A DNA stretch of 64,000 bases from Roseimaritima multifibrata (lineage in GTDB: Bacteria > Planctomycetota > Planctomycetia > Pirellulales > Pirellulaceae), in contig NZ_CP036262.1 of NCBI RefSeq assembly GCF_007741495.1, positions 496,001 to 560,000 of the forward strand. Reading direction: 5' to 3'. The stretch's first letter is position 1. Every line of letters starts with the position of its first letter. The notes below the pieces were generated by a model that was not told the DNA's origin, did no database searches, and saw only the letters and a program-made list of their open reading frames with translations. Positions 38,069-54,370 of the stretch are shown piece after piece. The position numbers and the translations under genes are program-made.

Positions 38069-39255
38069 TGACGGAATCCAAACTTGCTCCTCGAGTGCTT
38101 GTCTTCACACAAGATGAAGCGGTGGGTCGAGAGATCCGCGAGGCGATTCGCAATGTTGCCGCCGATGGGCCGATTAATGTCTACGTCACCACCGACCTGA
38201 CTCAGGCCGTCGATACCGTGCGCGACCGCGAACCGAACGCAGTCATGCTTGAACTCTCTGGCGACCTTGCCAGCGACCGAACTCGGATCGGCGAACTGCG
38301 TTCAATCCACTCGGACTTGATGTTGGTTGGGGTCTATAGCGCCGAATCGAACAGCGCCAACATTCATTCAGGCTACATGGTGGAATTGGTTCGGCTGGGC
38401 GTTAGCGATTTCCTCCGTCGCCCCATCGCCGAAGGCGAATTAAGCGGTTTCATGAACCGCTTGGTCTCCACCGGCCAGGCCAATGAACCGGCCCGAAGCG
38501 GGACATGCGTTGCCTTTGTCAGCAACAAAGGGGGCGTCGGAAAATCTAGTCTGGCTGTTAACACCGCGACCGCCCTGGCGCTGCAATATCCCAACGAAGT
38601 TTTATTGATCGACGCTTCCCTGCAGATGGGCGTTTGCGCCCCGATGTTGAATCTGACGCCCGAAACATCGTTGCTTGACGCCTTCGAGCAACGCCAGCGT
38701 TTGGATAGCACCCTGATCCGCCAATTGGCTACGCCCCATGAGTCGGGATTGATGTTGCTGGCCGCGCCCTCGGACCCCATTGCTGCCGCCGACATTGACG
38801 ACCAATCGATCGTGCGGGTTTTGAACCTCGCTCGACGTACCTTTCGCTTCGTCATCGTCGACACCTTTCCCTTGTTCGACCAGGTCGTGATGAGTGTGCT
38901 GGATATTGCCACTCGCGCGTATGTGGTTTTGGATAATGTCGTCCCCACGGTTCTCAGTGTGGTTCATTTGTTGCGACTGCTGGAAAATCTTCAGTACCCG
39001 CATGAACGTCTGCGGATCGTCGTCAATCGCTATCAACAATTGGCTGGCAATCCACTTATCGATGATGTCGCGCGTTCCTTGCGAATGCCGGTCGATCACG
39101 TATTGCCTTATGACAAACGTATGATTACCGCAGCCAATGTGGGGCGTCCGTGCACGATGGACTTGGTGCGATGGTCCAAGCTGCATCGCGAATTGAAACA
39201 ACTGGCCAATGAAATCATCGCGTTGCAGCCCGTCCAAGACGAGGGCCGGCGATGA
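38068..39255 (+). CDS. tadZ: TadZ/CpaE pilus localisation ATPase
   Basis: 395 residues from the ATG at 38068 (TGATG overlap with cpaB). An N-terminal receiver-like domain (~8-125) without an obvious phospho-acceptor site is followed by a MinD/ParA-type ATPase: deviant Walker A VSNKGGVGKSSLAVNTA (~148-165), VLLIDASLQMG and FVIVDTFPLFDQ. TadZ places the Tad machine at a cell site, often a pole. It overlaps the cpaF gene as ATGA. Confidence 0.9.
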   Translation: MTESKLAPRVLVFTQDEAVGREIREAIRNVAADGPINVYVTTDLTQAVDTVRDREPNAVMLELSGDLASDRTRIGELRSIHSDLMLVGVYSAESNSANIHSGYMVELVRLGVSDFLRRPIAEGELSGFMNRLVSTGQANEPARSGTCVAFVSNKGGVGKSSLAVNTATALALQYPNEVLLIDASLQMGVCAPMLNLTPETSLLDAFEQRQRLDSTLIRQLATPHESGLMLLAAPSDPIAAADIDDQSIVRVLNLARRTFRFVIVDTFPLFDQVVMSVLDIATRAYVVLDNVVPTVLSVVHLLRLLENLQYPHERLRIVVNRYQQLAGNPLIDDVARSLRMPVDHVLPYDKRMITAANVGRPCTMDLVRWSKLHRELKQLANEIIALQPVQDEGRR

Positions 39256-40721
39256 ACCAATTACCTCAAGACAATGTCCCCCCAAGCGATCCGGGCAAAG
39301 AGGATTTGGGCAAAGAGGAAGCGGGCAGATTCGCACGTCAGCAATTGTCGAAGGTCCGCTTTAAAGTTCCCGCAGAACGGGCGACCGAGCGAGAATCGTC
39401 GAAGAATGCCTTTAGCGTTTCCAGCGATGGTGCAACCCGATCCAAAACGAAGACGGCCGACTACATCACGGTCAAATCAGGTCTGCACCAGCGTTTGTTG
39501 GATCTGCTGAACGAAAGCCGATTTGTCGGAGCCTCGGACGAAGTCCTGGAAGACGCCGTGCAGGAATTCGTCGAACGGATTCTTGATACCGAAGACTTGC
39601 CGCTTAACGCGGCCGAACAGCGGCAACTGGCCGATGACCTGACGGAAGAAACCTTGGGGGTCGGTCCGCTGGCGCCGCTGTTGGGCGACCCCGCGGTGAC
39701 GGACATTTTGGTCAACCGCTTTGACCAAATCTATATCGAAAGATTTGGGAAGCTGGAAGCGACCGATGTTCGTTTTCGAGACAACGAGCACTTGGTGCGG
39801 ATCATCCAGCGAATTGCCGCCCGGGTCGGTCGTCGCATCGACGAAAGTTCGCCGATGGTCGATGCCCGCTTGGCCGATGGAAGCCGTGTTAATGCGACGC
39901 TACCGCCGGTCACGATCGACGGACCAACGCTTTCGATTCGGCGATTCGGTAAACGTCGACTTCGCCAAGACGATCTGATGCGTTTGGGGATGTTTTCATC
40001 CGCAATGCGTGAGTTCATGCATTGGATGGTGCTGTCGCGCAGCAACGTTCTGGTAGCCGGTGGTACCGGGGCAGGTAAATCGACGTTCCTGGGGGCTCTG
40101 TGCGAAGCGATCCCCGATTCGGAACGGATCGTCACCATCGAAGACGCCGCGGAACTACTTTTGGACCAGGTGCATGTGGTACGCATGGAAACGCGCCCCG
40201 CCAACCTGGAAGGAACGGGGCGGATTGCGGCCCGCGAACTGGTGATCAACGCGCTGCGGATGCGGCCCGACCGGATCATCGTGGGCGAGGTCCGGGGTGG
40301 CGAAGCGCTCGATATGCTGCAAGCGATGAACACCGGCCATGATGGAAGTCTGACGACGGTGCACGCCAATAGCCCCCGCGATGCCGTCTCACGATTGGAA
40401 ACGATGGTGATGATGGCGGGGATCGATTTGCCCTCCCGCGCGATCCGCGAACAGATTGCCTCGGCGGTCGACCTGATCATTTCGGTTCGTCGCTATGACG
40501 ATGGTATCCGCCGCGTTGAATCGATTTCGGAACTGACCGGGATGGAAGAACTGACGCCGCAATTGCAAGAGATTTTTGTCTTCAAGCAACGCGGCCGAAA
40601 AGATCGCCAGATCGTCGGAGACTTTCAGCCTACAGGCATCGTCCCCAGACGGGTTCATAACCTTCGCGAACGAGGTTTTGATATTCCGCTGGAGATGTTT
40701 CGAAGTGAGCGTGAGGGATAG
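39252..40721 (+). CDS. cpaF: TadA/CpaF secretion ATPase
   Basis: 489 residues. Hexameric ATPase that powers Tad pilus assembly. After a variable N-terminus (~1-75) come the TadA N-domain (LLNESRFVGASDEVLEDAVQEFVERIL..., LAPLLGDPAVTDILVNRFDQIYIERFGKLE) and the RecA core: Walker A GGTGAGKSTFLGAL near 268-280, the Asp box VTIEDAAELLLD, Walker B RPDRIIVGEVRGGEALDMLQAMNTGHDGSLTTVHAN with the His box, and the late DLIISVRRYDDGIRRVESISEL. Complete. Starts inside the tadZ stop and ends two bases before tadB. Confidence 0.95.
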   Translation: MNQLPQDNVPPSDPGKEDLGKEEAGRFARQQLSKVRFKVPAERATERESSKNAFSVSSDGATRSKTKTADYITVKSGLHQRLLDLLNESRFVGASDEVLEDAVQEFVERILDTEDLPLNAAEQRQLADDLTEETLGVGPLAPLLGDPAVTDILVNRFDQIYIERFGKLEATDVRFRDNEHLVRIIQRIAARVGRRIDESSPMVDARLADGSRVNATLPPVTIDGPTLSIRRFGKRRLRQDDLMRLGMFSSAMREFMHWMVLSRSNVLVAGGTGAGKSTFLGALCEAIPDSERIVTIEDAAELLLDQVHVVRMETRPANLEGTGRIAARELVINALRMRPDRIIVGEVRGGEALDMLQAMNTGHDGSLTTVHANSPRDAVSRLETMVMMAGIDLPSRAIREQIASAVDLIISVRRYDDGIRRVESISELTGMEELTPQLQEIFVFKQRGRKDRQIVGDFQPTGIVPRRVHNLRERGFDIPLEMFRSEREG

Positions 40722-40723
40722 CC

Positions 40724-41614
40724 ATGGCAATCTTCTTGTTCACACTGTTTGGCTTGATGTTAGCCGGAGGCCTGGCTGCCGTCGCTATCGCCATGTCGCG
40801 AAGCCAACAGGCGACCACGGCTCGCCGACGCTTGTTCGAACAGGTGAAACGGGTCGACGATGCGACCGCGGCTGAAGATATCCAGGAATTCTCGGTTCGG
40901 CACCGCCGTAGTCCTGTGCTGATGCGCTATTGGTGGATCGGCATTCCCGTCGCCCTGTTGATCGTAGGCTTGGTTTGGTTTTTGCTATCGATCCCTTGGC
41001 CTTATCTGCTCGCTTTTTTCGTCATGATCCTGCTGTGTGCGGGGCAAATCGACGCCATCTTTGTGCAGATGCGCGTCCAAAAACTGGAACAACAGCTTGC
41101 CGATTCCATCGACATGATGGTGGCCGCGGTGAAGTCGGGGGCTGGGTTGCAGTCCGCCTTGGAATCCAGCGTGAAACAGGCACGACGCCCCTGGCTGACC
41201 GAAGCCGAACAATTGACGCAAGCGGTTCGCTATGGCGACGATCCGGTCGATGCTTTGGGAGACCTGTCCGAACGTCTGCCCTTGGAAAGCGTGCTGCTGT
41301 TTTCTCAAACCCTGGCCGTGAATTGGCGTGTGGGAGGGCGGTTGGCGTTGACTCTGGCGAATGTCGGCCGCACGGTGCGCGATCGGATCGAACTGTCGCG
41401 GCGGATGAATGCCATGACCACGCAAGCCAGATTGTCGGTTGTGAGTGTGATCGTAGTGACGTACTTCATTGGCGCATTGATATGGCGGAATGACCCTGAA
41501 CGGATGACTGGTTTTTTGACCAGCATGGTCGGTCAGATAATGGTCTCCGTTGGCATGATGTTGCAAGCTGTGGGTACCGTTTGGATCTCGTGGATAAGTA
41601 AGCCGAGGTTCTAA
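40724..41614 (+). CDS. tadB: TadB inner-membrane platform protein
   Basis: 296 residues. Type II secretion F-domain protein that forms the membrane platform with TadC and contacts the ATPase. It has an N-terminal helix, two central helices (~65-105), the F-domain (LEQQLADSIDMMVAAVKSGAGLQSALESSVKQ..., DDPVDALGDLSERLP, VNWRVGGRLALTLANVGRTVRDRIELSRRMNAMTTQARLSV) and two C-terminal helices. Two bases separate it from cpaF and four from tadC, so the set is one operon. Confidence 0.92.
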   Translation: MAIFLFTLFGLMLAGGLAAVAIAMSRSQQATTARRRLFEQVKRVDDATAAEDIQEFSVRHRRSPVLMRYWWIGIPVALLIVGLVWFLLSIPWPYLLAFFVMILLCAGQIDAIFVQMRVQKLEQQLADSIDMMVAAVKSGAGLQSALESSVKQARRPWLTEAEQLTQAVRYGDDPVDALGDLSERLPLESVLLFSQTLAVNWRVGGRLALTLANVGRTVRDRIELSRRMNAMTTQARLSVVSVIVVTYFIGALIWRNDPERMTGFLTSMVGQIMVSVGMMLQAVGTVWISWISKPRF

Positions 41615-41618
41615 TACG

Positions 41619-42545
41619 ATGACAGGCTTACAAATCTTTCTGCTCTGTTTGGTAGGGGCCGGAATTGTCATCGGTCTTTGGGGGCTGCGCTGGTTGTGGC
41701 TGCTGGCCCAAAGCGAGCAACGACTTGCCGCGGGGACGGCGGCGTTGGATGTTCGCGATGCCGATCAGGTCCCTACCCAAAGATCATGGTTGGGGTGGTG
41801 GTTGTTTCGAGCGGGGTTCCGCAAAAAGAACGCAGTGACATTGTTCATGCTGGCCACCGGCGTTTCGGTATTAATGTCCGTCCTCTTTGCCTACGTCATC
41901 TATCAAAGCCAGGTGTTGACGGTTTTGGAAATGGTGCTGCGGGCGATTCCAGGAAACGTGGGAGAAGTCTTTCTGCCCCTGGCCTGGCTCAGTCCGGTTG
42001 CGGCGATTTTTGTGCTTGCTGGATTACCGGCGGTGATCGTCCGCGGGCGTCGTCGCAAACGTGTGACTCAGATCGAACAGGACCTTCCATTGACGCTTGA
42101 TCTGTTGGCAACGCTTGCCGAAGCGGGATTAAGTTTCGATGCAGCACTCGATCGAGTGCTCGAAACACAGCGACGACAACGACCGCTGGCAGAAGATTTT
42201 CGGCTCTTCCGTCTGGAAATTCTGACCGGACGAGGACGCGTCGATGCGCTGCAGCGTTTGAACCAATATGTCAACGTTCCGTGGTTTGGCATCTTTGTTT
42301 CAGCACTGATCCATGCCGAGCAAGTCGGTTCGGGCTTGGCCGCCACGCTGCGAGCCCAAGCGGATGACCTCCGCAGCCGTCGCCGTGAACGGGCCTTGGC
42401 GATGGCCATGGCCGTGCCGGTGAAGTTGCTGTTTCCCCTGATCACCTGTTTCCTGCCAGGCATCATGATCGCTTCACTGGGGCCGATCATTTTCCAGATC
42501 GTGCAGGTGCTTGATCAATTCACTCGCTCCGCGTTCGGAGGGTAA
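41619..42545 (+). CDS. tadC: TadC inner-membrane platform protein
   Basis: 308 residues, partner of TadB. It has an N-terminal helix, helices around 70-130, then the F-domain core (LPLTLDLLATLAEAGLSFDAALDRVLETQRRQRPLAEDFRLFRLEILTGRGRVDALQRLNQYVNVPWFGIFVSALIHAEQVGSGLAATLRAQADDLRSRRRERA) and a terminal helix pair with KLLFPLITCFLPGIMI. Complete. Followed after two bases by the DUF192 gene, so co-transcription continues into the glycan cassette. Confidence 0.92.
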   Translation: MTGLQIFLLCLVGAGIVIGLWGLRWLWLLAQSEQRLAAGTAALDVRDADQVPTQRSWLGWWLFRAGFRKKNAVTLFMLATGVSVLMSVLFAYVIYQSQVLTVLEMVLRAIPGNVGEVFLPLAWLSPVAAIFVLAGLPAVIVRGRRRKRVTQIEQDLPLTLDLLATLAEAGLSFDAALDRVLETQRRQRPLAEDFRLFRLEILTGRGRVDALQRLNQYVNVPWFGIFVSALIHAEQVGSGLAATLRAQADDLRSRRRERALAMAMAVPVKLLFPLITCFLPGIMIASLGPIIFQIVQVLDQFTRSAFGG

Positions 42546-42922: not shown

Positions 42923-45006
42923 CAGCAGCTGACCGCAACGACCGCCAAACGCACGACGCGCCCAGTCCAGGCCCCGCCATGGTCTTTGGCATCGCGCTGA
43001 TCCTGTGCGCGTTCTGGATGTTGGTCTGGCGCGGATCGCTTGAGGGTGTCTTTCACTTCGACGATTACGGCAACATTGTCGACAACGAACGTATTCGTCA
43101 ATTGTGGCCCCTGGACGATTTTCTGCAAAACAATCGTCCGATCGGTCTCTACTCCTTTGCGATCAATTATCACTTTTCGGGTACCGATACGTACGCCTAC
43201 CACATCACCAATTTGGCGATCCACATCACCAGCGGGCTGCTGCTGTATGCTGGTTGCCTGCTGATGTGGCGTCTGTATCGCAAGCATTGGGCGAATGAAA
43301 CACAACCAGCCTGGACTTACGCTGCGATCTTGACGGCCGGGCTGATCTCCACCGCTTGGGTCGTGCATCCGCTGACGACCCAAGCGGTCACCAACGTGGT
43401 GCAGCGATACGAATCGCTGGCTTCGCTGGGATATCTGGGCGTTTGGGTGGGCATGCTGTTGTACCTGGACGGCCGACGCTGGTGGGGGATGGCGATCATC
43501 CTACCGCTGGCGTGGATCGGCCTGATGTCCAAAGAAGTCTTCGCCACGGCGCCCTTGGCGGTACTGTTGCTGGATCGTTTGCTGACTCGACAACCGTGGC
43601 TTGCGATCGCTCGCCTTCGTTGGCTTCCCTACGCGTTGATGATCTCGCCCTTCGTATGGTTTATTCCCAGCGTTTCCAGATTCTTCGATACCGAGCGAAC
43701 CCGTGGTAGCTCCATGGGGCTGGGCATGGATCGGATCACTCCCTGGGAATATCTGCGCACGCAAGCGGAGGTGATTTGGCATTACGTCGGCTTGGTTGTT
43801 TGGCCGAAAGACCTGTGCTTTGACTATGTCTGGCGGATTCAAGCCAATCCTTGGATCTATCTTCCGCTCGGTGCCGCCCTTATTGCGGTCATCGTCGGTG
43901 CGTTGGCGTGTTACGGACGAGCCATTCGCCAGTCCGCCGCAACGTCCACACAAACTTTTGCCATCGGCTTGGCCGGTTGGCTGGGGCTGATTTTCTTTTT
44001 TATCCTCGCCCCCACATCCAGCTTCATGCCGATTGCCGACATTGCTGTCGAACATCGCATGTACTTGGCTTCGGCAACGATCATTGCGGGCATTGTGTTG
44101 CTGATGCGACACTTGTTAAGCGTTTTGATGCGTCGCAGCGAACGACCGTTGGTCCTCCAGTTGGGGGCCAGTTGTATCCTGATTGCCTGCATCAGCCTGT
44201 TGGCGTGGCGCACCCATTTGCGTAACCAAGACTATCGCGACGGGTTGGTGTTGTGGACGACCGCCGCGCAGATCTCGCCCGAAAATCCTCGCGTTTGGTA
44301 CAACCTGGGGCAAGAGCTTTATAACCGAGGAGACAAGCGTGCCGCACTGCGTCCCATGGTCAGCGCTGTTGGTCTTTCAGCAACCAGCGTGCCGCTGTTT
44401 GATGTTGGGTTGGCGGATACGTTGCGGGACGTTGGACGATACCAGGACGCAATCACGCTCTATCAACGCGCCATTTCAAAGCAGCACCGTTTTCCGGAAG
44501 CGTACAACAATCTTGGCGCCGTGTTTTTCAAATTGGATCGGCTGGACGATGCTCAACAGGCCTTCGAAGCCGCGGTCGATCAAGACCATCCCGAAGCCAA
44601 GTACAACTTGGCGCTGGTCTATTTGAGACAAAACCAGCCTCGTCAGGCGATTCTCTTGTTTCAAGAATTGATCGACAGGCACCCCGAATTCACGGTGGCC
44701 AATCGACGACTGGCTTGGATCCTGGCAACGGCGAAAGAGGACTCGTTGCGAGATATCGAACGGGCTCGGCAACTGATGCAAACGCTCTATGACCGAAACA
44801 CCACGCAAAGTGTTTCCGTGCTGGACACCTTTGGCGTCATTCAAGCCGCGCAGGGCGATTTCGCAACCGCCATCCAGACCGCTCGACAGGCGCTGTCACT
44901 GGCCCAAGCAGCTCCAAAACCGAATGCAAAATTGATCGCGGATCTTCAGTTGCGGATCCAGCATTACCAAAACAATCAGCCCTGGATCGGAGGAAGCCAA
45001 CCATGA
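42919..45006 (+). CDS. Multi-pass membrane protein with C-terminal TPRs (TMTC/PMT-like glycosyltransferase candidate)
   Basis: 695 residues. About ten membrane helices in residues ~15-430 are followed by TPRs (~450-690; NPRVWYNLGQELYNRGDKRAAL, FPEAYNNLGAVFFKLDRLDDAQQAFEAAVDQDHPEAKYNLALVYLRQNQPRQAI). The first outside loop has FHFDDYGNIVDN, the acidic motif typical of GT-C glycosyltransferases and of the TMTC family, whose eukaryotic members transfer mannose to protein. An O-glycosyltransferase acting on pilus or surface protein is plausible from the neighbours but not shown. ATGA overlaps join it to DUF192 and to the GT2 gene. Confidence 0.75.
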   Translation: MTAADRNDRQTHDAPSPGPAMVFGIALILCAFWMLVWRGSLEGVFHFDDYGNIVDNERIRQLWPLDDFLQNNRPIGLYSFAINYHFSGTDTYAYHITNLAIHITSGLLLYAGCLLMWRLYRKHWANETQPAWTYAAILTAGLISTAWVVHPLTTQAVTNVVQRYESLASLGYLGVWVGMLLYLDGRRWWGMAIILPLAWIGLMSKEVFATAPLAVLLLDRLLTRQPWLAIARLRWLPYALMISPFVWFIPSVSRFFDTERTRGSSMGLGMDRITPWEYLRTQAEVIWHYVGLVVWPKDLCFDYVWRIQANPWIYLPLGAALIAVIVGALACYGRAIRQSAATSTQTFAIGLAGWLGLIFFFILAPTSSFMPIADIAVEHRMYLASATIIAGIVLLMRHLLSVLMRRSERPLVLQLGASCILIACISLLAWRTHLRNQDYRDGLVLWTTAAQISPENPRVWYNLGQELYNRGDKRAALRPMVSAVGLSATSVPLFDVGLADTLRDVGRYQDAITLYQRAISKQHRFPEAYNNLGAVFFKLDRLDDAQQAFEAAVDQDHPEAKYNLALVYLRQNQPRQAILLFQELIDRHPEFTVANRRLAWILATAKEDSLRDIERARQLMQTLYDRNTTQSVSVLDTFGVIQAAQGDFATAIQTARQALSLAQAAPKPNAKLIADLQLRIQHYQNNQPWIGGSQP

Positions 45007-45740
45007 ATGCTTCGTCAAACTTGGGCTTACGTCCAGCGCAAACTTCGGCCGGCTTGTCTGGAGAGCAACCGCAAAACGTATGGATCGTGATTGCCGCTTA
45101 CAATGAAGGTAGTCGTCTAGCGACTACATTGAAATCGCTCGCGAATTGCGGCTCGGTGGTGGTTGTGGATGATGGCTCACGCGACGACACCTTCGAAGTG
45201 GCCTGCTCGTTTCCCGTTTGGGTTCTGCAACATCCACTTAATTGCGGACAGGGAGCGGCCCTGCAAACCGGTATCGATTTTGCCTTGTCTCAGGGGGCCG
45301 ATGCGGTGATCACGTTCGACGCCGATGGGCAGCATGACCCGGCCGAACTTTCTCAGATGCTGCAACCGGTTGTCAGCGGGCAAGTCGATGTGGCCCTCGG
45401 TTCACGCTTTTTGGGCTCGACGCAAAACATGCCCTGGTCGCGGCGAATCCTGCTCATGCTGGCCATCTGGTTCACGCGGCTGACTAATGGTTTAGCACTG
45501 ACCGATACGCATAACGGGTTTCGAGCCTTGTCACGTTCGGCCGCACAGCAAATCCGGATTCGCCAACCGCGAATGGCGCATGCCTCGGAGATCCTGGACC
45601 AAATTGCCAAACATCGTTTGCGATACGTCGAAATTCCGGTGACGGTTCGCTATCACGCGGACACTTTGGCCAAGGGGCAAAGTTCCTGGGATGCGTTTCG
45701 GATCACCGGGCACCTGTTGGCGGGGAGGTTCTGGCAATGA
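45003..45740 (+). CDS. GT2 glycosyltransferase, dolichyl/polyprenyl-phosphate mannose synthase-like
   Basis: 245 residues with one GT-A domain: WIVIAAYNEGSRLATTLKSL, VVVDDGSRDDTFEVA, NCGQGAALQTGIDFAL, AVITFDADGQHDPAELSQML (DxD), ALGSRFLGS and THNGFRALSRSAAQQIRI. It resembles enzymes that make polyprenyl-phosphate sugars, the donors used by GT-C proteins such as its upstream neighbour. No membrane helices, so it acts at the inner face. Four-base overlaps on both sides place it in one operon with the TPR protein and DUF2304. Confidence 0.87.
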   Translation: MNASSNLGLRPAQTSAGLSGEQPQNVWIVIAAYNEGSRLATTLKSLANCGSVVVVDDGSRDDTFEVACSFPVWVLQHPLNCGQGAALQTGIDFALSQGADAVITFDADGQHDPAELSQMLQPVVSGQVDVALGSRFLGSTQNMPWSRRILLMLAIWFTRLTNGLALTDTHNGFRALSRSAAQQIRIRQPRMAHASEILDQIAKHRLRYVEIPVTVRYHADTLAKGQSSWDAFRITGHLLAGRFWQ

Positions 45741-46126
45741 ATCCATTTCAATGGATCACGATATCAGGGCTGGGGTTGTTGGCCTTGCTGGAGGTTCGTG
45801 CCTTTTTGAAGAACCGCCAGCCAATCCACGTGTTTCGGGAATTTGTCTGGCTGGCTGCGGTCCTGATGATTTTGTTTCCGGGGCTGACCACGCGGATGGC
45901 GGATTGGCTGGGCATTGGCCGCGGCACCGACTTGGTATTTTATGCCTTCATGCTATTGGCCACCGGAGCGTTCTTTCATTTCTACGGGCGCATTTATGTG
46001 ATGCGTCGCGACATCGTCGAACTGGCGCGGCGAGAAGCCCTCCATACGGCCACGCCGGGCGAGGGTCTGCAGCGTCCCGCACATCCCGCGACGATCGCTT
46101 CCCGCAATGAAGGAGGCGAACGATGA
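45737..46126 (+). CDS. DUF2304 small membrane protein
   Basis: 129 residues with three helices (WITISGLGLLALLEVRAFL, REFVWLAAVLMILFPG, DLVFYAFMLLATGAFFHFYGRIYVMRRDIVELARREAL). The ending matches DUF2304, a family almost always encoded beside a GT2 glycosyltransferase, probably as its membrane partner or flippase-like subunit. It overlaps both neighbours by four bases (ATGA). Confidence 0.87.
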   Translation: MNPFQWITISGLGLLALLEVRAFLKNRQPIHVFREFVWLAAVLMILFPGLTTRMADWLGIGRGTDLVFYAFMLLATGAFFHFYGRIYVMRRDIVELARREALHTATPGEGLQRPAHPATIASRNEGGER

Positions 46127-47325
46127 GCATCGCAGCAAATGATTCACCGACCATCGCCCTGGTAATCCCGGGCCGCAACTGTGCCGCCACGCTCGACCGC
46201 TGCCTGCAATCCGTCGTCCCCCTACTATCCCGTAGTGGACGAGGCGACGAGTCCCCCACGGACCACAACGGACGATACGACGAGTCCAGCGCAACCGGAC
46301 TGGTTGCCTCCTCCGCGACGCCCAATAACCATCGCGCCGGACTCGTCGCCTCGTCCACTACGGCCTCGCCGCCTGCAGCCCGCCTGCAAGAGATCATCTT
46401 CGTCGACGACGGATCGACCGACGCGACCGCCGAGATCGCGGCGCGGTATCCCGTGCGAGTGATCGCAGGCACGGGCCAAGGCCCCGGCGCAGCCCGCAAT
46501 CTGGGCTGGCAAGCGACCGACGCGGATTTGGTGTGGTTCATCGACAGCGACTGCGTAGCTGAGTCCGACGCCTTGGCAAAACTGCTCCCGCACATGAGCG
46601 ATCCCGAAGTCGCCGGAGTCGGAGGCAGTTACGCGAACCTCTATCCGGACTCGCTGGTCGCCACGCTGATCCACGAAGAGATCGTCGCCCGGCATCGTCG
46701 GATGCCGTTAAGGGTTAATTTCCTTGGAGGATTCAATGTTTTGTATCGCCGAACCGCATTGAAAACTTTAAATGGCTATGACGAGTTGGTTACCAATGGC
46801 CCGGGAGCCGCTGGTGCCGAAGATTGCGACTTGTCGTTTCGCGCCGTCGATAGCGGTATGCGCCTTCATTTTGAATTGAAGTCACGAGTCGGGCACTATC
46901 ATCCAACGAGCCTTTGGGGGTATCTACGAACTCAATTTCGACACGGACGTTTCCGCGCGAGCCTTTTCCGGAGACATCGCAACAAGATTTCCGGTGATTC
47001 GTATGCTGGATTAATCGACTACGTGCAGCCTCCGGTGGCTTTGGCTTCACTGGCAGTTATCCCGCTGATGGCGTTTGGTCTTTTGGGAGGGATTGCGTTT
47101 GGGCTACTGATCGGTCTGCTGTTGATCGTGCAATTGCCTATGGCCGCGGCAATTGCAAAGACTTCGTGTCGACTGGCTCTTATATTCGTCCCATTTGGAT
47201 TCATGAGAGCCTACGCCCGTGGGCTCGGTTTGACACAGGGCATACTGCTCATAACGCGTTCCGACCAACAGGATTGTACTCCAGCTACTGAATCAAAATC
47301 GAACCAACACGGGGTAGCCGGCTAG
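46123..47325 (+). CDS. GT2 glycosyltransferase with an in-frame repeat insertion
   Basis: 400 residues. The GT-A domain starts TIALVIPGRNCAATLDRCLQSV, then ~50 unexpected residues rich in Ser/Gly/Asp/Ala, then resumes at LQEIIFVDDGSTDATAEIAARYP, GPGAARNLGWQATDADLVWFIDSDC, GFNVLYRRTALKTLNGYDE and EDCDLSFRA. Two to three C-terminal helices follow (SLAVIPLMAFGLLGGIAFGLLIGLLL). The insertion corresponds to a repeat element at 46230-46363. It falls between the first helix and the strand before DDGS, a surface loop, so activity may survive. Base composition drops from ~46,700 onward. The stop shares one base with the next start (TAGTG). Confidence 0.85.
   Translation: MSIAANDSPTIALVIPGRNCAATLDRCLQSVVPLLSRSGRGDESPTDHNGRYDESSATGLVASSATPNNHRAGLVASSTTASPPAARLQEIIFVDDGSTDATAEIAARYPVRVIAGTGQGPGAARNLGWQATDADLVWFIDSDCVAESDALAKLLPHMSDPEVAGVGGSYANLYPDSLVATLIHEEIVARHRRMPLRVNFLGGFNVLYRRTALKTLNGYDELVTNGPGAAGAEDCDLSFRAVDSGMRLHFELKSRVGHYHPTSLWGYLRTQFRHGRFRASLFRRHRNKISGDSYAGLIDYVQPPVALASLAVIPLMAFGLLGGIAFGLLIGLLLIVQLPMAAAIAKTSCRLALIFVPFGFMRAYARGLGLTQGILLITRSDQQDCTPATESKSNQHGVAG
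46230..46363. repeat. Family D inverted-repeat element inside the GT2 coding sequence
   Basis: CCGTAGTGGACGAGGCGACG... (46230-46254) and its exact 25-base reverse complement (46339-46363) bound 134 bases. Inner parts repeat pieces of the same words (GACGAGTCC, CGGACTGGTTGCCTCC). The structure is like paired REP elements. It is translated in frame without stop codons. Confidence 0.9.
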
Positions 47326-48683
47326 TGAGTATCAGGAATTCCATGTGTTCGAAAAGCCGCATCAACGTCTTGGTATGTCCGTTTGGAGATCTCAATTTGT
47401 TGTTGTTTCTGTTTCAGGAGCTGGAGGCAAAATTCCCGGGAAAGTACTCGCCGACGTTTCTTTCTTTTACTGAATATGATCGTCTTGTCTATCGGAGCTT
47501 CGAGTACGAACACATCCATATTTCGCCCGCAACGCGCGCAGGCTGGTTTACGGAAAGCGATCTGGATGAGGTGTGCCGCTTCACCATTGGTCTTTCACGC
47601 TACCATGGAACGGCGACACCTGACGACTATTTTCATTCTGTCGCCAACCACTATGGTTATCAAATCAGCAAAGTGCTGTGCTCGAAAGAGTACGATCACG
47701 TCGTCCTGTTCAACGGCAGAATGAACTTGTTCATTGCCTGTCTCGATAAAGTCGCCGAGAACGAAAAGCTACCTCGACTCATTTTCGAACAGGGACTGTT
47801 TCGCCCGCGATGGATCACGCTGGACGGCCAAGGGGTGAATGCCAGAAACTCAATCCATTCAATTGAGCAGCTTCTTTCGGATGAACCATTCGATTATCAA
47901 CGGCGCGAGCTTTTCAAGGATATCTCGCTGCTGTTTCCTTTTGAACGGAAGCGGATTCCGGATTTCAAGCGGCGAGTCTCGAAGCCTGGGTTATTCCGCG
48001 CCTATATTTCTTCGAAAACACAATCGCGACGGAATCTGTTTCTGCGCACTGCCGAAAACAAAGATTTCTTCGATTCGACGGTGTTTCCGCGCAAGGTGAA
48101 ACAGACACGGCAACCCGAAATAAAACTCAGCGAGCTTTGCGAGGATAGGAACCACCATTTTATCTTCTGTCCATTCCAAGTCGAAACCGACACACAGATC
48201 ATTCTGCACTCACCGTGGATATCAAGGATGTCGGAATTTGCCGACATCATGTGCGATGTCGCGGATCGCCTTTACGCTGGCGGAGTTCCGATTCGCGTCT
48301 TATTCAAGCGTCATCCCATGTCAGCTACGCAGGTTCCAATATCTCACCCTCGTGCAGATCTGATCGAGGATGTCCCCGTGGATGACATTCTACGGCGACT
48401 CAAGCCTTTGGTCGTCACGATCAATTCCACTGCGGGGATCGAGGCGATCGATGCTGGACTGCCGGTGGTCACCTTGGGTGAGACATTCTTCAATCTGCCG
48501 GAAGTGATACTTGGGACATGCCGTGATATCGATGCATTGACAAACCTGTTGTCCAAATTTTTTCTTGGTAAAGCGAAATATTCTGCTTTCGCCGGCAGAC
48601 AGCTTATGGACGCAATGCGTGATAAATATCAAGTATTGGCGTATTCCGATTTGCCTGCTTGCTTCGAGGAGAAAGGCTCTTGA
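47325..48683 (+). CDS. Capsule polysaccharide biosynthesis protein (KpsC/KpsS-like)
   Basis: 452 residues from a GTG at 47325 that shares one base with the previous stop; ATG at 47343 is an alternative. The N-terminal half has a Rossmann-like region (HVVLFNGRMNLFIACLDKVAENEKLPRLIFEQGLF) and the C-terminal half reads FCPFQVETDTQIILHSPWI, VLFKRHPM, INSTAGIEAIDAGLPVVTLGETFF, the hallmark of capsule synthesis proteins that add Kdo linkers in KpsC/KpsS systems. It lacks membrane helices. A KpsF-like isomerase nearby supports a Kdo-type link. Lower GC than the Tad genes. Confidence 0.75.
   Translation: MSIRNSMCSKSRINVLVCPFGDLNLLLFLFQELEAKFPGKYSPTFLSFTEYDRLVYRSFEYEHIHISPATRAGWFTESDLDEVCRFTIGLSRYHGTATPDDYFHSVANHYGYQISKVLCSKEYDHVVLFNGRMNLFIACLDKVAENEKLPRLIFEQGLFRPRWITLDGQGVNARNSIHSIEQLLSDEPFDYQRRELFKDISLLFPFERKRIPDFKRRVSKPGLFRAYISSKTQSRRNLFLRTAENKDFFDSTVFPRKVKQTRQPEIKLSELCEDRNHHFIFCPFQVETDTQIILHSPWISRMSEFADIMCDVADRLYAGGVPIRVLFKRHPMSATQVPISHPRADLIEDVPVDDILRRLKPLVVTINSTAGIEAIDAGLPVVTLGETFFNLPEVILGTCRDIDALTNLLSKFFLGKAKYSAFAGRQLMDAMRDKYQVLAYSDLPACFEEKGS
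48666..48676 (+). promoter_or_regulatory. Strong ribosome-binding site that selects a TTG start
   Basis: GAGGAGAAAGG ends three bases before TTG at 48680, and its GAGGAG core is eight bases away. The TTG overlaps the previous stop (TTGA). No ATG is available until 48719, so TTG 48680 is the likely start. Confidence 0.7.
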
Positions 48684-49609
48684 TCGCGAAGAGACATTGC
48701 ACGATAGCAGTCGAGAAGATGGCCAGCCCTTACGCCCGTATTGGGCTTGATTGCGTTGCTGACTGTTTGGCCATGGACGGATACCGCGTGATTCGGTGGC
48801 AAGGACCCTACGCGAGAAGGTTCAAGTTTGTTGCATCGGCGATCCCGGATTGCGACGCTGCGGTCATTTGGAATGGGTTGAAACCACGCTATCAAAGTCC
48901 AGTGAAGACCCTTAAGCGTAAAAAGATCCCGTTTCTCGTAATGGAAGTTGGGTGGTATCCGCAAGCGGGGACCTATCAAATCGATAGCGACGGCATCAAT
49001 GTTGGCGCAAGCTGGGTGCAGACGCTACTCAGGCAAAAAAGTTCAATGAGTTCACCCGTCACATTGAATCAAAACGGAATGGATCTGCTGGTGATCATGC
49101 AGAATGATGCCGATTCGCAAATCACGCATTTCTCACCATATTTTGACCGGATGTCTGAGTTTTTGAGGTTTTTAATTGGGGCTTCATATTTGCCGTTGCG
49201 TATAAGGTTTCATCCGCGACATCCTCCAGGGATCCGCCTCAAGAAGTTGATTCGTCGGCACTGTGACAAACTCACTGTCGATCGCTCCCCAAGTTTGTCG
49301 TCAGCACTTGATCAAGCCCTTGCCGTAGCCTCGGTGAATTCATCTTCGGGGGTTGAGGCGATGGATCGTCAACTGCCGGTTCTCTGTTTCGGCGAATCGA
49401 TCTATGGCGTGACGGGCGCAGTTTACCGGCTCAATCGCGATCCTGAGAAAACGAGACACGTTACGCAGGAATTGTCCCAGGGACGGTGTGACCTCGATTC
49501 TGCATTGATTCAGTTGGTCGTGTCGACGATTAAGTCACATCAGTTGCCAGTGGAACAAATTCCCAAACAGATTAAACCTATGATTAAATCCCTCGTTTCA
49601 GGCAGTTAA
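48680..49609 (+). CDS. Second capsule-synthesis-like protein
   Basis: 309 residues from TTG at 48680, favoured by the GAGGAG ribosome site; ATG 48719 is an alternative. The end of the protein shows LRIRFHPRHPPG and AVASVNSSSGVEAMDRQLPVLCFGES, the same phosphosugar-binding pattern as in its neighbour (INSTAGIEAIDAGLPVV). The N-terminal part (IGLDCVADCLAMDGYRVIRWQGPYARRF, AAVIWNGLKPRY) forms the other half. It is thus a shorter, diverged member of the capsule synthesis family. Four-base overlap with the previous gene. Confidence 0.7.
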   Translation: MIAKRHCTIAVEKMASPYARIGLDCVADCLAMDGYRVIRWQGPYARRFKFVASAIPDCDAAVIWNGLKPRYQSPVKTLKRKKIPFLVMEVGWYPQAGTYQIDSDGINVGASWVQTLLRQKSSMSSPVTLNQNGMDLLVIMQNDADSQITHFSPYFDRMSEFLRFLIGASYLPLRIRFHPRHPPGIRLKKLIRRHCDKLTVDRSPSLSSALDQALAVASVNSSSGVEAMDRQLPVLCFGESIYGVTGAVYRLNRDPEKTRHVTQELSQGRCDLDSALIQLVVSTIKSHQLPVEQIPKQIKPMIKSLVSGS

Positions 49610-49630
49610 CAATTGCAAGGCTTAACGTCA

Positions 49631-50302
49631 ATGCGTCTCAGACAGAAATCAGAACGGCTTGTGGTCAGCCTGTTTCGCGCCATGGGCTACAGTATTCGAA
49701 AGATTCCTAAGTTGCCAGAGCGAGTGCGTGGCTACGAAGGAGCAGACTATGCCGACGCACGCGTAAATGTAGGCTGCGGTGAACGCGTTGAAGGTAGCTA
49801 TATCGGATGCGACGTTCGCGATCTTCCTCATGTAGAGATCGTGTGCGACGCTTGGAACCTTTCTCAACATGCCGCTAACCTTGCCGAAGTCTACACGCGG
49901 CATATGGTCGAGCACCTTACGATTTGGGAAGTCGAGCTCGCCTTAAAAGATTGGTTTCGGGCTCTTAAGCCGGGCGGGCAAGTTCACATCATCGTTCCAG
50001 ACCTGCGGTTTCATATGGAACAGTACATGCGGGCGACGTGGACCGATCTGAACTGGGGTATGTTGACATCTGATGCACGCCAAGGATTTGCGGGGCTGTT
50101 TGGGTGGCAACGGGAAACAGAATTTGACCCGGACGTGGAAGAATCGCTTCCCCTCTACTGGGACGTGCATAAGAGCGGATTCGATATTTATTCTCTGACT
50201 TTCTTCCTGCAACGCGCAGGTTTTGTCGGAATTGAATGCGTCGTTGAAGATGAATGTCATCTGCACGGTCGCGCGAGAAAACCAGCCAAAAACCTTTCAT
50301 AA
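49631..50302 (+). CDS. Class I SAM-dependent methyltransferase
   Basis: 223 residues from the ATG at 49631; a TTG at 49613 is possible. The SAM site is RVNVGCGERVEGSYIGCDVRD, followed by YTRHMVEHLTIWEVELALKDWFRALKPGGQVHIIVPDL, the usual motif for methyltransferases of surface glycan clusters. The acceptor is unknown, probably a sugar in the capsule or pilus glycan. It lies in the low-GC part of the cassette. The next gene begins 26 bases after this stop. Confidence 0.8.
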   Translation: MRLRQKSERLVVSLFRAMGYSIRKIPKLPERVRGYEGADYADARVNVGCGERVEGSYIGCDVRDLPHVEIVCDAWNLSQHAANLAEVYTRHMVEHLTIWEVELALKDWFRALKPGGQVHIIVPDLRFHMEQYMRATWTDLNWGMLTSDARQGFAGLFGWQRETEFDPDVEESLPLYWDVHKSGFDIYSLTFFLQRAGFVGIECVVEDECHLHGRARKPAKNLS

Positions 50303-50328
50303 ACCTATGCAGCGGATACCTCAATACG

Positions 50329-50985
50329 ATGTATTTCGATTACAACCAAGCGTTGTTTCACCCCGATCGCGACGAGATCGTCGTCAAGCGATGCGGGGGA
50401 AAACGAGTCTTGCACATTGGCGCCTGTGACAGCCCACATGCTCAGGAAAAACTCAACTCGGGCATGTTGTTACACACAAAAATCACGGAAGTTGCAGGTG
50501 AATGCTTGGGTATCGATATCGATCAAGAATCGATCGATTTGCTCAGGAAAAGGGGCATCGACAATATCGAATTGCGCAACCTGCACGACCTTGATCATTC
50601 CAGTTTTGATGCTGATGTGATCGTTTTCGGCGAAACAATTGAACATCTCGAGAATCCTGGAGAATGTCTCGCCAGTCTTCATCGCTATATGGGCGAATCT
50701 GCTCAGCTAATCGTTTCCACGCCGAATTGTTTTGGTCTTTGGCTATTCACGCAGTCGCTTCGGAATTTTGAGAAGCTTCACGACGATCACCAAATAGGAT
50801 TTACGCTAGGCCTGCTTTCTCAGCATTTGAATCGTTTTGGCTTTAAGATCGATCAGTTCTATTTTACCTTTCTTCCAAGAGCGAAGTCTAAATGGTGGCG
50901 GAATTGTTGGCGTGGGATAGCAAAAGTTCGTCCGGGAGTTGCTGAAACACTGTGCGTGGTCTGTTCCAAGAATCAAAGAACGTAA
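50329..50985 (+). CDS. SAM-dependent methyltransferase (type 23/11-like)
   Basis: 218 residues from the ATG at 50329; the frame extends into the previous gene but without conserved residues. It has GGKRVLHIGACDSPHAQ (SAM loop), CLGIDIDQESIDLLRKRGI, FDADVIVFGETIEHLENPGECLASLHRYM and LIVSTPNCFGLWLF, the class I order of motifs. The acceptor is unknown; a sugar methyl group is likely given the neighbours. It is the last plus-strand gene of the cassette and converges on the isomerase gene. Confidence 0.8.
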   Translation: MYFDYNQALFHPDRDEIVVKRCGGKRVLHIGACDSPHAQEKLNSGMLLHTKITEVAGECLGIDIDQESIDLLRKRGIDNIELRNLHDLDHSSFDADVIVFGETIEHLENPGECLASLHRYMGESAQLIVSTPNCFGLWLFTQSLRNFEKLHDDHQIGFTLGLLSQHLNRFGFKIDQFYFTFLPRAKSKWWRNCWRGIAKVRPGVAETLCVVCSKNQRT

Positions 50986-51035
50986 TCCATCGACTTCACT
51001 GAAGAAAAAAAACAGGGCTTGAATTCCTGAAGGCT

Positions 51036-51995
51036 TCATGCCAAGCCTGCGCGTAATACGTGATGCATGTGGAGGATCCCGGAGTTCTTTCCTTCCTCGG
51101 TGACAACAAGGACCATGATTCGGTTTTCTTCCATCAGGTGGAGGGCTTTGGCGGCCAATTCCTGAGCCTCGATCGATTTCGGATTCGCTGTTGCTACCTG
51201 GCCGATGGTCTTGTCAGTGAGATTTACGCTCGATGCGATCAAACGTCTTAAGTCTCCATCGGTAAAGATGCTCCACTGGGAATCCTTCTCACTTCGGGAC
51301 AGGATGCATCCAAGCCCACCCGACGACATTGTTTCAATTGCTGTGGACAGAGGCGTGCTGTAGTCGATTAGAGGTACAGCGTCTTCTGTGAGCATCAAGT
51401 CTCGAACTCGCAGCAGTGACTTCCGTCCGAGTGATCCACCTGGATGAAATCCCGCAAACTGATCGGCGGTGAATCCACGTCGCTCGAGATGCGAGATGGC
51501 CAATGCATCACAAATTGCTAGCACAACCATGGTGGAGCAAGTCGGGATCAAGTTCCAACCGTCTGCTTCCCCGGTGTGTGGTACAACCAGTGCCTGATGG
51601 GTCCGCCTCGCCAACGTAGATTCGCGGCGGCTGGTAATGGATACCGTCGTGACTCCCAAGCGTTCGAAATGCGGAATCAGCGAGAGAACCTCGTCGGTCT
51701 CCCCACTGTGAGAGATGCAGAGGGCAATATCATCACTGGACACGATTCCCAGATCGCCGTGGAGTGCTTCGCTGGGATGGAGGTAAACTGCAGCTACACC
51801 CGTACTGTTGAACGTAGCGGCGACCTTTCGACCGGCGATTCCAGACTTGCCCAGGCCAACAACGATCAATCGTCCCGCGAGACCATCTAACAAATCTAAT
51901 AGTTCACCGACCTGATCAGGAATCGCATCGACCAGCCGTGAAAGGGCATCTCTTTCAGCGATCAGAACGCGCCGTATCACATCAAGATCGTTCAT
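51036..51995 (-). CDS. kpsF: Arabinose-5-phosphate isomerase (KdsD/KpsF family)
   Basis: 319 residues. Converts ribulose-5-phosphate to arabinose-5-phosphate, the first step to Kdo. SIS domain: VVGLGKSGIAGRKVAATFNSTG (~45), VYLHPSEALHGDLGIVSSDDIALCISHSGETDEVLSL, and the C-terminal part of the domain with GFHPGGSLGRKSLLRVRDLM. Two CBS domains follow (~205-319). It overlaps the flippase gene by four bases (ATGA). Its place in a cluster with capsule-synthesis proteins favours a KpsF-like role in capsule over general LPS. Confidence 0.9.
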   Translation of the reverse strand: MNDLDVIRRVLIAERDALSRLVDAIPDQVGELLDLLDGLAGRLIVVGLGKSGIAGRKVAATFNSTGVAAVYLHPSEALHGDLGIVSSDDIALCISHSGETDEVLSLIPHFERLGVTTVSITSRRESTLARRTHQALVVPHTGEADGWNLIPTCSTMVVLAICDALAISHLERRGFTADQFAGFHPGGSLGRKSLLRVRDLMLTEDAVPLIDYSTPLSTAIETMSSGGLGCILSRSEKDSQWSIFTDGDLRRLIASSVNLTDKTIGQVATANPKSIEAQELAAKALHLMEENRIMVLVVTEEGKNSGILHMHHVLRAGLA

Positions 51996-53260
51996 TCGAG
52001 TGACTCAGAGTTTGGGGGGGCGGACAATCCGACTAGGCTGAGCAATGTTATCGCCGCTGAAACGATCGTTGAAAAAGCCACCTGACTGCCGCCGGCGATA
52101 TCAATTGGAAGCGAAAGAGATACTGTGAACGCTACGACGCTCAAAATAGCAATCACGGTTAGTTGATGTTCCTTTTGCTGGGCAATTAAGTACATGTTGC
52201 CGATGATCCCACCGACGCGAACAGTCGCAGCGACCAGCATGAGTGCGATCATCCAGCGTGCATGTACGAACTCTTTCGGCAACACGTAACGAATCCCTAA
52301 TTCACTGCAAACCGCTGCCATGATCGTCAGCGTCAGCGTCACTCCAAAATAGGCTGCAAATAAGCGGCGTTTGAAGGACAGCGTTTCACCAAACCTTCCG
52401 ATCACGTGTGGATAGACTGTTCGCGTCAGGAGACCAATCAGCATTGCGTGAGCTCGAAAAACAAATGCCGCGACGGCAAACAGGCCCGCTTGAATCGGCC
52501 CAAACAGGATCCGTGTGAGCGTAACGCCAATCGCAGCTGGTGCGACGTTCAGTATCGTACCCACAGACAAAACCCTCGCCGACCTCCAGAGTTTAAGTAG
52601 AGTAGAATGGTCGATTCGTGGCCGGAAACTTCGATGCCTTCGTTTAAAGTCGGCCAGACCGATTAACGCGCAAGCCCACCACTTGGCTCCAAAGAAAACC
52701 GCTGCAATAGGAACGGTGATCCATTCGATCCACCAGCAAAAGGCAAGTGCAGATAGAGTGCACACCTCACATATGGTTGCGATGACAGCCGCCTCAACTT
52801 GCAATTGTTCTGCATCAAATAATGCCAGCGGAAATAAACATGCACCTAAATTTCCGAACGCGATTAGCCAATACGCTAGCTTCTCGTCATTCCCGATCGG
52901 AAGGAAGCACACAGTCAGAGCCGTCAGGAGGAATGCCAGAACCCCGACGCCAGCGCAAAGCAGGAAATAGGAACCAGCGATGTATTCCTTGTTCTGCGGA
53001 TTTTGAAGGCTCTCACGAATGACCACGTTTCGGAGCCCAGAGATGCCGATGGTTGCTAGAAGTTGCTGCAAGAATAACGCGCCACTCAGTTGTCCGAATT
53101 CGGAAGTCGTAAGCGCGTTCGCTAGAATGGCGAATGTAGTGGCTCCGGCAGCCTGCGAAAGGCCAGTGCAGACGACGAGTCCTGACATTGTCCTTTGGAC
53201 TTGTTTTTCACCGGGAGTCGCAGATCTCTGCAATCGACGTAGGATTCTTTGCACTTTCAT
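51992..53260 (-). CDS. Polysaccharide flippase (Wzx/MATE-like oligosaccharide exporter)
   Basis: 422 residues from the ATG at 53260 (MKVQRILRRL); the open frame reaches 53512 but the first 84 residues look non-coding. About twelve membrane helices in the pattern of polysaccharide biosynthesis proteins: VVCTGLSQAAGATTFAILANALTTSEFGQLSGALFLQQLLATIGISGLRNVVIRE, then pairs of helices, and LTRTVYPHVIGRFGETLSFKRRLFAAYF. It should flip lipid-linked glycan units across the inner membrane. It is the first gene of a two-gene minus-strand unit with the isomerase. Confidence 0.8.
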   Translation of the reverse strand: MKVQRILRRLQRSATPGEKQVQRTMSGLVVCTGLSQAAGATTFAILANALTTSEFGQLSGALFLQQLLATIGISGLRNVVIRESLQNPQNKEYIAGSYFLLCAGVGVLAFLLTALTVCFLPIGNDEKLAYWLIAFGNLGACLFPLALFDAEQLQVEAAVIATICEVCTLSALAFCWWIEWITVPIAAVFFGAKWWACALIGLADFKRRHRSFRPRIDHSTLLKLWRSARVLSVGTILNVAPAAIGVTLTRILFGPIQAGLFAVAAFVFRAHAMLIGLLTRTVYPHVIGRFGETLSFKRRLFAAYFGVTLTLTIMAAVCSELGIRYVLPKEFVHARWMIALMLVAATVRVGGIIGNMYLIAQQKEHQLTVIAILSVVAFTVSLSLPIDIAGGSQVAFSTIVSAAITLLSLVGLSAPPNSESLE

Positions 53261-53819
53261 ACTCGTCTTATTGATGACGCCGCGTACGGCGTGCCCGTCT
53301 TCCAGCATCCGCTGACGAATGGATGTAGATGCGCTCAACTTTGGGTGCAACGAACCTAAACGGTCAATTGCCAGTATCGCAGGTCCAGCCCGGGCAAAGC
53401 GTAACAAGTGCATAAGAACTGCAAAAGAGGCGAGGTAATTTGGAGAAATCGTTCCTGCATGGTCTCCAGCGTGGTTCGCAATCGCAAAAACTCCGGTGCA
53501 ATCGCTGTGCAAAAGGGATGTATCTTGACATCAAGACGTCATCCCTTCACTTCGAGTGCGCCGTAAATGAATCATTGTTTGATCCATTAGGTCATAGCTG
53601 ATTCCTGCTAGTGATACTGATGCCCCGAAGTCGTTTTATCCTGGTTTCGAAGAGCATGCCTTTGGGCTAGCGAAACGTTTGTTTCTCATAGCAAGCAATC
53701 GCAGAAAGTCGTGTTAAGCGGTTCTTCACGGGAAGGTCACGAATTTGCTATACTTGCCTTTGGGGTTTTGGTCGGACCTGGAGTCTTGATTTTCTATTTC
53801 CGTTCTGAAGGAATGACCT
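53261..53819. other. Divergent region between the flippase and a His-rich protein gene
   Basis: About 560 bases. The left 250 are an open minus-strand frame continuous with the flippase, which might be coding. The right part holds a promoter-like pair (TTCACG 53725-53730, TATACT 53749-53754, spacer 18) and, between it and the gene, GGTCGGACC (53770-53778). Nothing else is recognised. Confidence 0.4.
53725..53778 (+). promoter_or_regulatory. Predicted promoter and GGTCGGACC site of the His-rich coiled-coil gene
   Basis: -35 TTCACG and -10 TATACT with an 18-base spacer; transcription would start near 53761. The palindrome-like TTTTGGTCGGACC (53766-53778) follows, 41 bases before the ATG. The same word stands 38 bases before the His/Cys-rich gene at 33587. 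Confidence 0.5.
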
Positions 53820-54317
53820 ATGTTGCTGTTTCGTTTTGCTGCTTTGACGCTTGCCGCTGCAGTACTGTTTCCACTTGCCACTCCCGCCTTTGCCGATGAT
53901 TCGGACGACCACCAACACATGCTTGAGGAACATGCTGCTGCCAAACAGCAGCATGCTGCTTGGTTGGCTAAAGCCGAAAAGATGAAGGTCGATCACCGCA
54001 AGGCGCTGGCCGCTATGGCTCGTCTGGAAGCCGAGATCTTGGATCACGAAGCGGAGCTTGAAGAGCAGATCTCCAAAATTCGTGTTCACGAAATGTTGAT
54101 CGAAGCCCATGAAAGCTCGATCGCCGCTCACGAAGCGGGGGATGATGTCGATCACGAAAAGCTGTCTAAACAGCACCAACAGATCCATCGTCAGCATGAG
54201 CAAATGGAAAAAGGCATGAGCGCCACAACCGATGACCATGCGGACTTGATCGGTCAATTGATGAAGTTCCTGAAAAATCACACCAAGAAGTTTCACGCCC
54301 ATGGTTCAGGTGAATAA
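53820..54317 (+). CDS. Secreted His-rich coiled-coil protein
   Basis: 165 residues; AAGGA lies seven bases before the ATG. The signal peptide (FRFAALTLAAAVLFPLATPAFA) is followed by a helical, heptad-like mature part with many His (DDHQHMLEEHAAAKQQHAAW, HEMLIEAHESSIAAHE, HQQIHRQHEQMEK, KNHTKKFHAHG), about one residue in seven. Probably an extended coiled coil binding divalent metal outside the cytoplasm. It lies inside the Tad/glycan region but shares an upstream motif with the His/Cys-rich pair at 33 kb, suggesting a common regulator. Confidence 0.7.
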   Translation: MLLFRFAALTLAAAVLFPLATPAFADDSDDHQHMLEEHAAAKQQHAAWLAKAEKMKVDHRKALAAMARLEAEILDHEAELEEQISKIRVHEMLIEAHESSIAAHEAGDDVDHEKLSKQHQQIHRQHEQMEKGMSATTDDHADLIGQLMKFLKNHTKKFHAHGSGE

Positions 54318-54340
54318 AGAATCGGGTGGGAGAAGACGTG

Positions 54341-54363
54341 GGCCGGAACGATGCGTTCCGGCC
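54341..54363. terminator. Perfect hairpin after the His-rich coiled-coil gene
   Basis: GGCCGGAACG ATG CGTTCCGGCC is a ten-base perfect stem, 23 bases past the stop. There is no strong T run (GCCTTCTTT follows), so it may be a weak terminator or the first member of the repeat array that follows. Confidence 0.45.
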
Positions 54364-54370
54364 GCCTTCT

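Follow-up and report, generated by a model that had tools for sequence, protein, structure and literature searches.

The 64,000-nucleotide stretch of the Roseimaritima multifibrata genome analyzed here (the window) carries a glycosyltransferase gene in which units of a dispersed palindromic repeat lie in frame within the coding sequence. We consider it likely that this insert is an array of GTAG-tagged REP-type units, founded when a pair of units entered a loop of the enzyme in an ancestor or in a shared locus and altered thereafter in copy number. The gene and the parts of its insert are as follows.

46123 to 47325, + strand: GT2 glycosyltransferase gene (GT-A type), 400 amino acids, carrier of the insert (Pfam PF00535, E = 2.3e-24; AlphaFold2 mean pLDDT 83.2).
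46225 to 46383, + strand: coding segment for residues 35 to 87 (53 amino acids; five residues in homolog L157), from a MAFFT alignment with 20 homologs.
46232 to 46254, + strand: REP unit A, intact (0 mismatches), reads SGRGDES; the perfect arm begins at 46230.
46265 to 46287, + strand: REP unit B, decayed (6 mismatches), reads GRYDES.
46288 to 46296, no strand: spacer between units B and C, 9 nt, the commonest +/− spacing in R. multifibrata (G000) and in genome G115.
46297 to 46319, − strand: REP unit C, decayed (4 mismatches), reads GLVASSAT.
46339 to 46361, − strand: REP unit D, intact (0 mismatches), reads GLVASSTT; the perfect arm finishes at 46363.

The initial annotation had reported a 25-base perfect inverted repeat at 46230 to 46363, in frame and without a stop codon in a glycosyltransferase gene, and this observation is confirmed. 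The arms (46230–46254 and 46339–46363) are complementary at 25 of 25 positions, are separated by 84 nt, and span 134 bases overall, and the ORF that contains them has no internal stop along its entire length. The 134-base segment folds 8.3 SD below dinucleotide shuffles. Other inverted repeats of 14 to 19 nt in the window are few, and this one alone reaches at least 20 nt (overlapping offsets counted). A chance inverted repeat or an assembly artifact is almost inconceivable as an explanation, given that no inverted repeat of at least 14 nt within 200 nt appeared in ten randomizations of the window by a first-order Markov model and that an independent genome of another genus (G009) carries a comparable insert at this site.

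The earlier estimate of about 50 residues added over 134 bases holds for the residues, about 48 of which are added relative to L157, the closest insert-free homolog (53 versus 5, read off the alignment). It does not hold for the boundaries, because 134 is not divisible by 3 and the segment that differs from the homologs is 46225 to 46383, or residues 35 to 87. The proposed placement between the first helix and the DDGS strand agrees with an AlphaFold2 model built from a 12-row alignment (mean pLDDT 83.2, pTM 0.81), in which the insert falls between the first helices (residues 21–31 and 33–37) and the DDGS strand (residues 87–95). Residues 42 to 81 are the sole internal stretch with pLDDT below 50, the only other such residues being at the protein ends; this low value is expected in part because the other alignment rows all lack the insert. 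A downstream start, which would yield an enzyme made without the segment, is argued against by the conserved LVIPGRN strand upstream.

Each arm contains one unit, GTAGTGGACGAGGCGACGAGTCC, of the dispersed palindromic repeat. The four units are ordered + + − −, with the decayed pair between the intact arms, and the two + units share one frame (SGRGDES and GRYDES), as do the two − units (GLVASSAT and GLVASSTT). Among 301 distinct units the GTAG end is kept at 287 (G), 286 (T), 272 (A), and 286 (G), counts that lean toward GTAG because the set was gathered by a GTAG-containing pattern at up to six mismatches and includes chance matches from unrelated loci. The unit consensus holds a GGAC/GTCC inverted repeat, and the proposed hairpin is GGAC-GA-G(GYNA)C-GA-GTCC behind the GTAG. 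All 14 one-mismatch matches to the 19-base core in R. multifibrata vary at the same position, the third base of the proposed four-base loop.

Formation of this hairpin within a single unit is likely, with modest support. In a set of 250 distinct units with at most two mismatches, three compensating double changes are seen at pair 9–20, where 0.05 are expected, two at pair 12–17 (0.10 expected), and none at the outer three stem pairs. The double changes at 9–20 come from G000, G014, and G100, and those at 12–17 largely from one G100 cluster. Larger counts obtained with units at up to six mismatches were dropped, as these included chance matches in unrelated loci, and the recounts are smaller. 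Mutual information in the 301-unit set is strongest in the neighboring columns 14–15, 22–23, and 21–22 rather than in stem pairs, positions 14–15 having been left free in the scan pattern. A single unit folded alone gives −1.8 kcal/mol (z 0.47), which makes the hairpin unremarkable by the energy model.

The description of the insert as a REP-like element of a dispersed family, tolerated in coding DNA, is borne out by genome-wide copies, by a survey of the taxonomic family, and by the homolog alignment described below. A search of the R. multifibrata genome (7.22 Mb, one contig) with the 19-base core at up to three mismatches returned 28 matches versus 2 for the reversed control. In the family sample, the 23-base unit at up to one mismatch occurs in 38 of 149 genomes, this one included, and the reversed control in none. 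At this threshold the counts are 20 in R. multifibrata, 19, 0, and 0 in G001, G002, and G003 of the same genus (the G003 assembly is 82% complete), 86 in G009, and 203 in G115, the maximum in one genome. A slightly wider pattern found units in 3 of 392 genomes of a phylum sample, 9 of which belong to the same family; the three are R. multifibrata itself and two genomes of the same class, with two copies and one copy. The units thus appear largely confined to this planctomycete family (Pirellulaceae).

Most copies lie between genes, according to our own codon-usage ORF calls rather than curated annotation. In R. multifibrata, 17 loci were examined after neighbors were merged, and two were dropped (L043, with no unit at five mismatches, and L039, a lone unit with four). 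The 15 retained sites comprise 12 between genes, 9 of which are +/− pairs with a 9-nt spacer, and 3 in genes, so that the other copies sought by the initial annotation exist in both settings. The 60 sites of G009 (113 units at up to four mismatches, in loci around 100 of 116 matches) are intergenic in 56 cases and lie in ORFs in 4, and 40 of them are a lone +/− pair. Two of the four in-ORF sites are sound, both in the ortholog of the window glycosyltransferase gene; those at 2903148 and 3398238 were not counted as sound because of poor upstream coding scores. For G115, where the 100 matches listed out of 239 are all exact, the first 80 were resolved into 79 sites. Of these, 73 are intergenic, 3 lie in ORFs, 2 are close to an ORF start, and 1 overlaps an ORF end. 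Thirty of the 79 are a lone +/− pair, and 9 nt is the commonest +/− spacing (24 cases). At the 67 sites with a gene on both sides, the flanking genes are convergent in 40 cases, codirectional in 25, and divergent in 2. One of the three G115 in-ORF sites is inside a Pfam domain; the C8 site, with a poor upstream coding score, and the L216 match, located ahead of its sulfatase domain, were not counted as sound. For the statement that such elements are rare in coding DNA, the figures are thus 3 of 15 sites in R. multifibrata, 4 of 60 in G009 (2 of them sound), and 3 of 79 in G115; in-gene REPs have already been published (PMC3733652).

The window protein matches proteins in 10 of 241 family genomes at E ≤ 1e-30, its own included, and we aligned it with 20 homologs, 9 from those genomes and 11 from 13 further loci (L086 and L087, short and weak matches, were omitted). 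The alignment with orthologs proposed initially did recover insert-free versions: 18 of the 20 homologs lack the insert and have a short loop instead, e.g. SVVPL-KQS-GELKEI. Because of this distribution, the insert does not appear to be an original part of the enzyme. The initial annotation had held that the same residues in distant orthologs would mark the segment as an old part of the enzyme, and its presence in two genera goes some way in that direction, related residues being found in G009 in another copy number. However, the short loop is all that the 18 homologs possess, some of them in the same operon, and the arms match dispersed units. The idea of an old functional part that merely resembles a repeat is largely refuted by these insert-free orthologs, and we regard it as very improbable.

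The corresponding segment of the G009 ortholog, at the same site, is 96 residues long and comprises five + units spaced 39 bp apart, one of them with four mismatches, together with one − unit. The R. multifibrata and G009 inserts share site and frame, the residues SGRGDESPT and GLVASSTT, and a flanking CTATCC. In the G002 ortholog, from the same genus as R. multifibrata, the site reads RSLGYA and is coded by a 16-bp perfect palindrome, CGTAGCCTAGGCTACG. Palindromes of this size are not unique, with three in the 64-kb window; CGTAG followed by CTACG within 10 bases was found, in 164 kb, at the G002 site and twice inside REP units, and nowhere else. Judged from this one sequence, the palindrome looks like a deletion remnant of the array. 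Because of the G009 array and the likely G002 remnant, the window copy is probably not new: the insertion would be older than the splits between these lineages, or would have arrived with the locus, and copy number would have changed afterward. Taken alone, the window copy is no sign of recent movement; the earlier assertion that the family moves finds better support in a filled and empty epimerase gene pair, described below.

It is unlikely, in our estimation, that the R. multifibrata and G009 genes acquired REPs separately at one preferred site. The glycosyltransferase gene has been hit more than once, as a second REP pair later in the G009 gene attests, and in two Xanthomonas species different REPs are reported from nearly the same position in recB (PMC3733652). 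Separate events would nevertheless have to account for a codon position, a reading frame, a CTATCC flank, the SGRGDESPT residues, and a tandem + pattern that are all common to the two genes. The second pair lies deeper in the G009 gene, at positions 4565 to 4620 of L088, in a different + frame (NVVDEATSPQTGGLVTSSTTIN).

We favor one insertion, to which the common site, frame, and residues point. A head-to-head pair of units would have been carried, by whatever process spreads the family, into the glycosyltransferase loop that connects the first helices with strand 2, in the ancestor of the genus of R. multifibrata and that of G009 or in a locus common to both. The insert may owe its survival to a loop that tolerates length, to a unit that, in its window form, is free of stops in five of six frames and encodes mostly small polar residues, and to a net length that preserved the frame; the added residues may be neutral. 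Units would later have been duplicated, decayed, or lost, presumably through slippage and palindrome deletion, to leave two + and two − units here, five + units and one − unit in G009, and the 16-bp remnant in G002. The perfect outer arms around decayed inner units would need more than the ageing of one insertion.

The units might also be viewed as the terminal inverted repeats of a nonautonomous IS or MITE rather than as REPs, because perfect 25-bp ends enclose 134 bp and because some units elsewhere may be part of something longer. A conserved tail, CTGNNNATTACCCACAA, follows some units in G115 and G009; in 17 such units, 15 of them from G115 and 2 from G009, CTG followed by the conserved NNNATTACCCACAA replaces the terminal TCC, and the 3′ half of the stem is missing. 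In several G115 loci two tails are oriented toward each other at a distance of about 240 nt (e.g. L249 1293–1534, L259 1301–1542, L267 1621–1865, and L269 1307–1548), the second copy mostly at three to four mismatches, and this tailed part of the family may represent the ends of a longer, possibly palindromic, element with REP-like ends. Several intergenic copies in R. multifibrata (L032, L037, and L044) likewise share sequence such as GCATCAATAACTGGC outside the unit and its GTAG, and the intergenic element there may be longer than a REP pair. However, the units are also found in tandem + arrays and in close pairs separated by 9 nt, the tail is missing from the window insert (its best match in the window has four mismatches and is located elsewhere), and the one filled and empty alignment, of the epimerase gene, reveals no clear target duplication by eye. 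A nonautonomous IS or MITE is therefore improbable for the window insert, and we retain the REP-type array as the preferred description.

REPs are commonly associated with RAYT transposases, which, according to PMC3733652, accompany them in most, but not all, species that host GTAG repeats. We examined 38 Y1_Tnp loci, five of which are shortened by contig ends, for units within 1.5 kb on each side at up to five to six mismatches. None was present in any of the 8 loci of R. multifibrata (all of its Y1_Tnp matches) or of the 30 loci scanned out of 177 matches in 20 carrier genomes, and the tail was likewise absent from the 38 loci. The five Y1 matches in G009 are at least 9.5 kb from units, among the matches listed (100 of 116). 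A RAYT as a close neighbor of the units was rejected for the 38 loci, a result that bears on close linkage only.

Other in-frame copies occur in conserved proteins, and the glycosyltransferase, epimerase, and kinase genes all have insert-free relatives. An epimerase-family gene of G100 carries VVDDAISPESTGNGEGLVASSTT within a 78-nt insertion that is absent from three orthologs at 76 to 82% identity, and this comparison provides what we judge to be the cleanest evidence for units entering genes. A kinase gene of R. multifibrata (L164, 13323–15998, − strand) contains SGRGNESLADSTASTEGLVASSTT just ahead of its kinase domain and, farther along, a decayed pair; the first peptide is missing in four of four relatives (G002, G009, G127, and a paralog in the same genome), and the second is mostly missing in G002. 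The adjoining gene has one additional decayed pair, so that L164 12220–15998 bears three in-frame REP pairs in differing states of decay. In G014 a pair lies inside a Laminin_G_3 domain and in G115 three units lie inside an ECF sigma domain, cases for which there is no insert-free comparison.

The units resemble GTAG REPs in their GTAG end and in being dispersed, mostly intergenic, and often paired head to head. The GTAG-tagged REPs of Di Nocera et al. (2013, PMC3733652) share the terminal GTAG, the short palindrome, head-to-head pairs, an intergenic location between convergent or codirectional genes, and some units within genes, and Rhodopirellula baltica is named there among species with several REP families. 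Most hosts of GTAG REPs in that study have RAYT genes, and no RAYT was found near the present units in the 38 loci scanned. Rickettsia palindromic elements (RPEs; PMC2229807 and PMC3733652) are likewise palindromes tolerated in frame in many unrelated proteins; however, they measure 105 to 146 bp (PMC2229807) versus 23 bases for the unit here, and those classed as REPs end in CGTC (PMC3733652) versus GTAG. Class 3 TnpA-Y1 elements (PMC6006769) come from the same phylum and are hairpins beside Y1 transposase genes, but, compared by description, have a CnGA foot where the present units have GTAG.

The arrangement is therefore of a known kind, since both REPs inside genes and RPEs of Rickettsia have been published, and we regard it as a well-resolved new member, compared by text with the families of PMC3733652. 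Open-access literature, whose figures are not searchable and which thus gives a weak negative, held no report related to the unit sequence or its peptide, and a search of the open-access library for Rhodopirellula together with repeats or REPs found none. Rfam returned a sub-threshold MIR5534 match alone (25.1 bits, cut-off 79), which we take as chance, and a plasmid search gave no matches. What the case offers is a REP array within a conserved enzyme, one operon being available across genera in insert-free, array-bearing, and apparent remnant versions. With such a comparative set one can ask how genes gain, multiply, and lose palindromes and how the protein is affected. A planctomycete repeat family that is abundant in some species, with 203 units at up to one mismatch in G115, is described as well.

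The surroundings of the gene bear on its history, and the following features are relevant.

45003 to 45740, + strand: upstream GT2 gene, same operon, conserved partner.
45737 to 46126, + strand: DUF2304 gene, same operon, conserved partner.
54906 to 56753, + strand: conserved gene to the right of the variable stretch (81% amino acid identity to G009 and 67% to G002 over 142 residues compared).

The GT2–DUF2304–glycosyltransferase operon is common to G000, G002, and G009 and to the insert-free loci L157, L158, L160, and L162. Window genes at 39252 to 42545 are 88 to 95% identical to those of G009 at the amino acid level (the first gene over the part compared), and the next three are 67 to 80% identical. 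The glycosyltransferase gene itself is a mosaic: over residues 9 to 36 the match is 100% with G009 and 92% with G002, identity to G009 drops from 90–100% to 25–57%, and values below 60% are reached past about residue 120 for G002 and about residue 190 for G009. Between this gene and the one at 54906 to 56753 lies a stretch that holds a capsule-synthesis-type gene (PF05159). The region from 46123 to 54906, where conserved flanks surround a stretch that differs among the three genomes, carries the marks of an exchangeable polysaccharide-type cassette starting inside the 3′ part of the glycosyltransferase gene. The insert thus lies in the conserved part of this gene, whereas the other end of the gene is part of the exchangeable stretch; since the gene is mosaic, its 5′ part may have been transferred between genera. 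We give little credence to a broader proposal, in which the array, as a coding repeat of variable length where conserved and exchangeable parts meet, both tunes the linker of a surface-sugar enzyme and offers short homologies for downstream cassette swaps between species.

Units are clustered in two other genomes, with 10 of 14 within about 20 kb in G014 (L153 and L156) and 7 of 9 within about 5 kb in G100 (L154); several sulfatase genes lie in the G014 stretch. The idea that these clusters mark polysaccharide loci was examined on nine of their genes, which encode four sulfatases, a FecR/Laminin-G protein, an oxidoreductase, a PhyH-type protein, an epimerase-type protein, and an RlaP protein and so lend no support to a general link between units and glycosyltransferase clusters. 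At one G009 site (L155, 1576–1598), the upstream ORF at 581 to 1579 takes its TAG stop codon from the GTAG of the unit, as is likewise reported of other GTAG REPs in PMC3733652.
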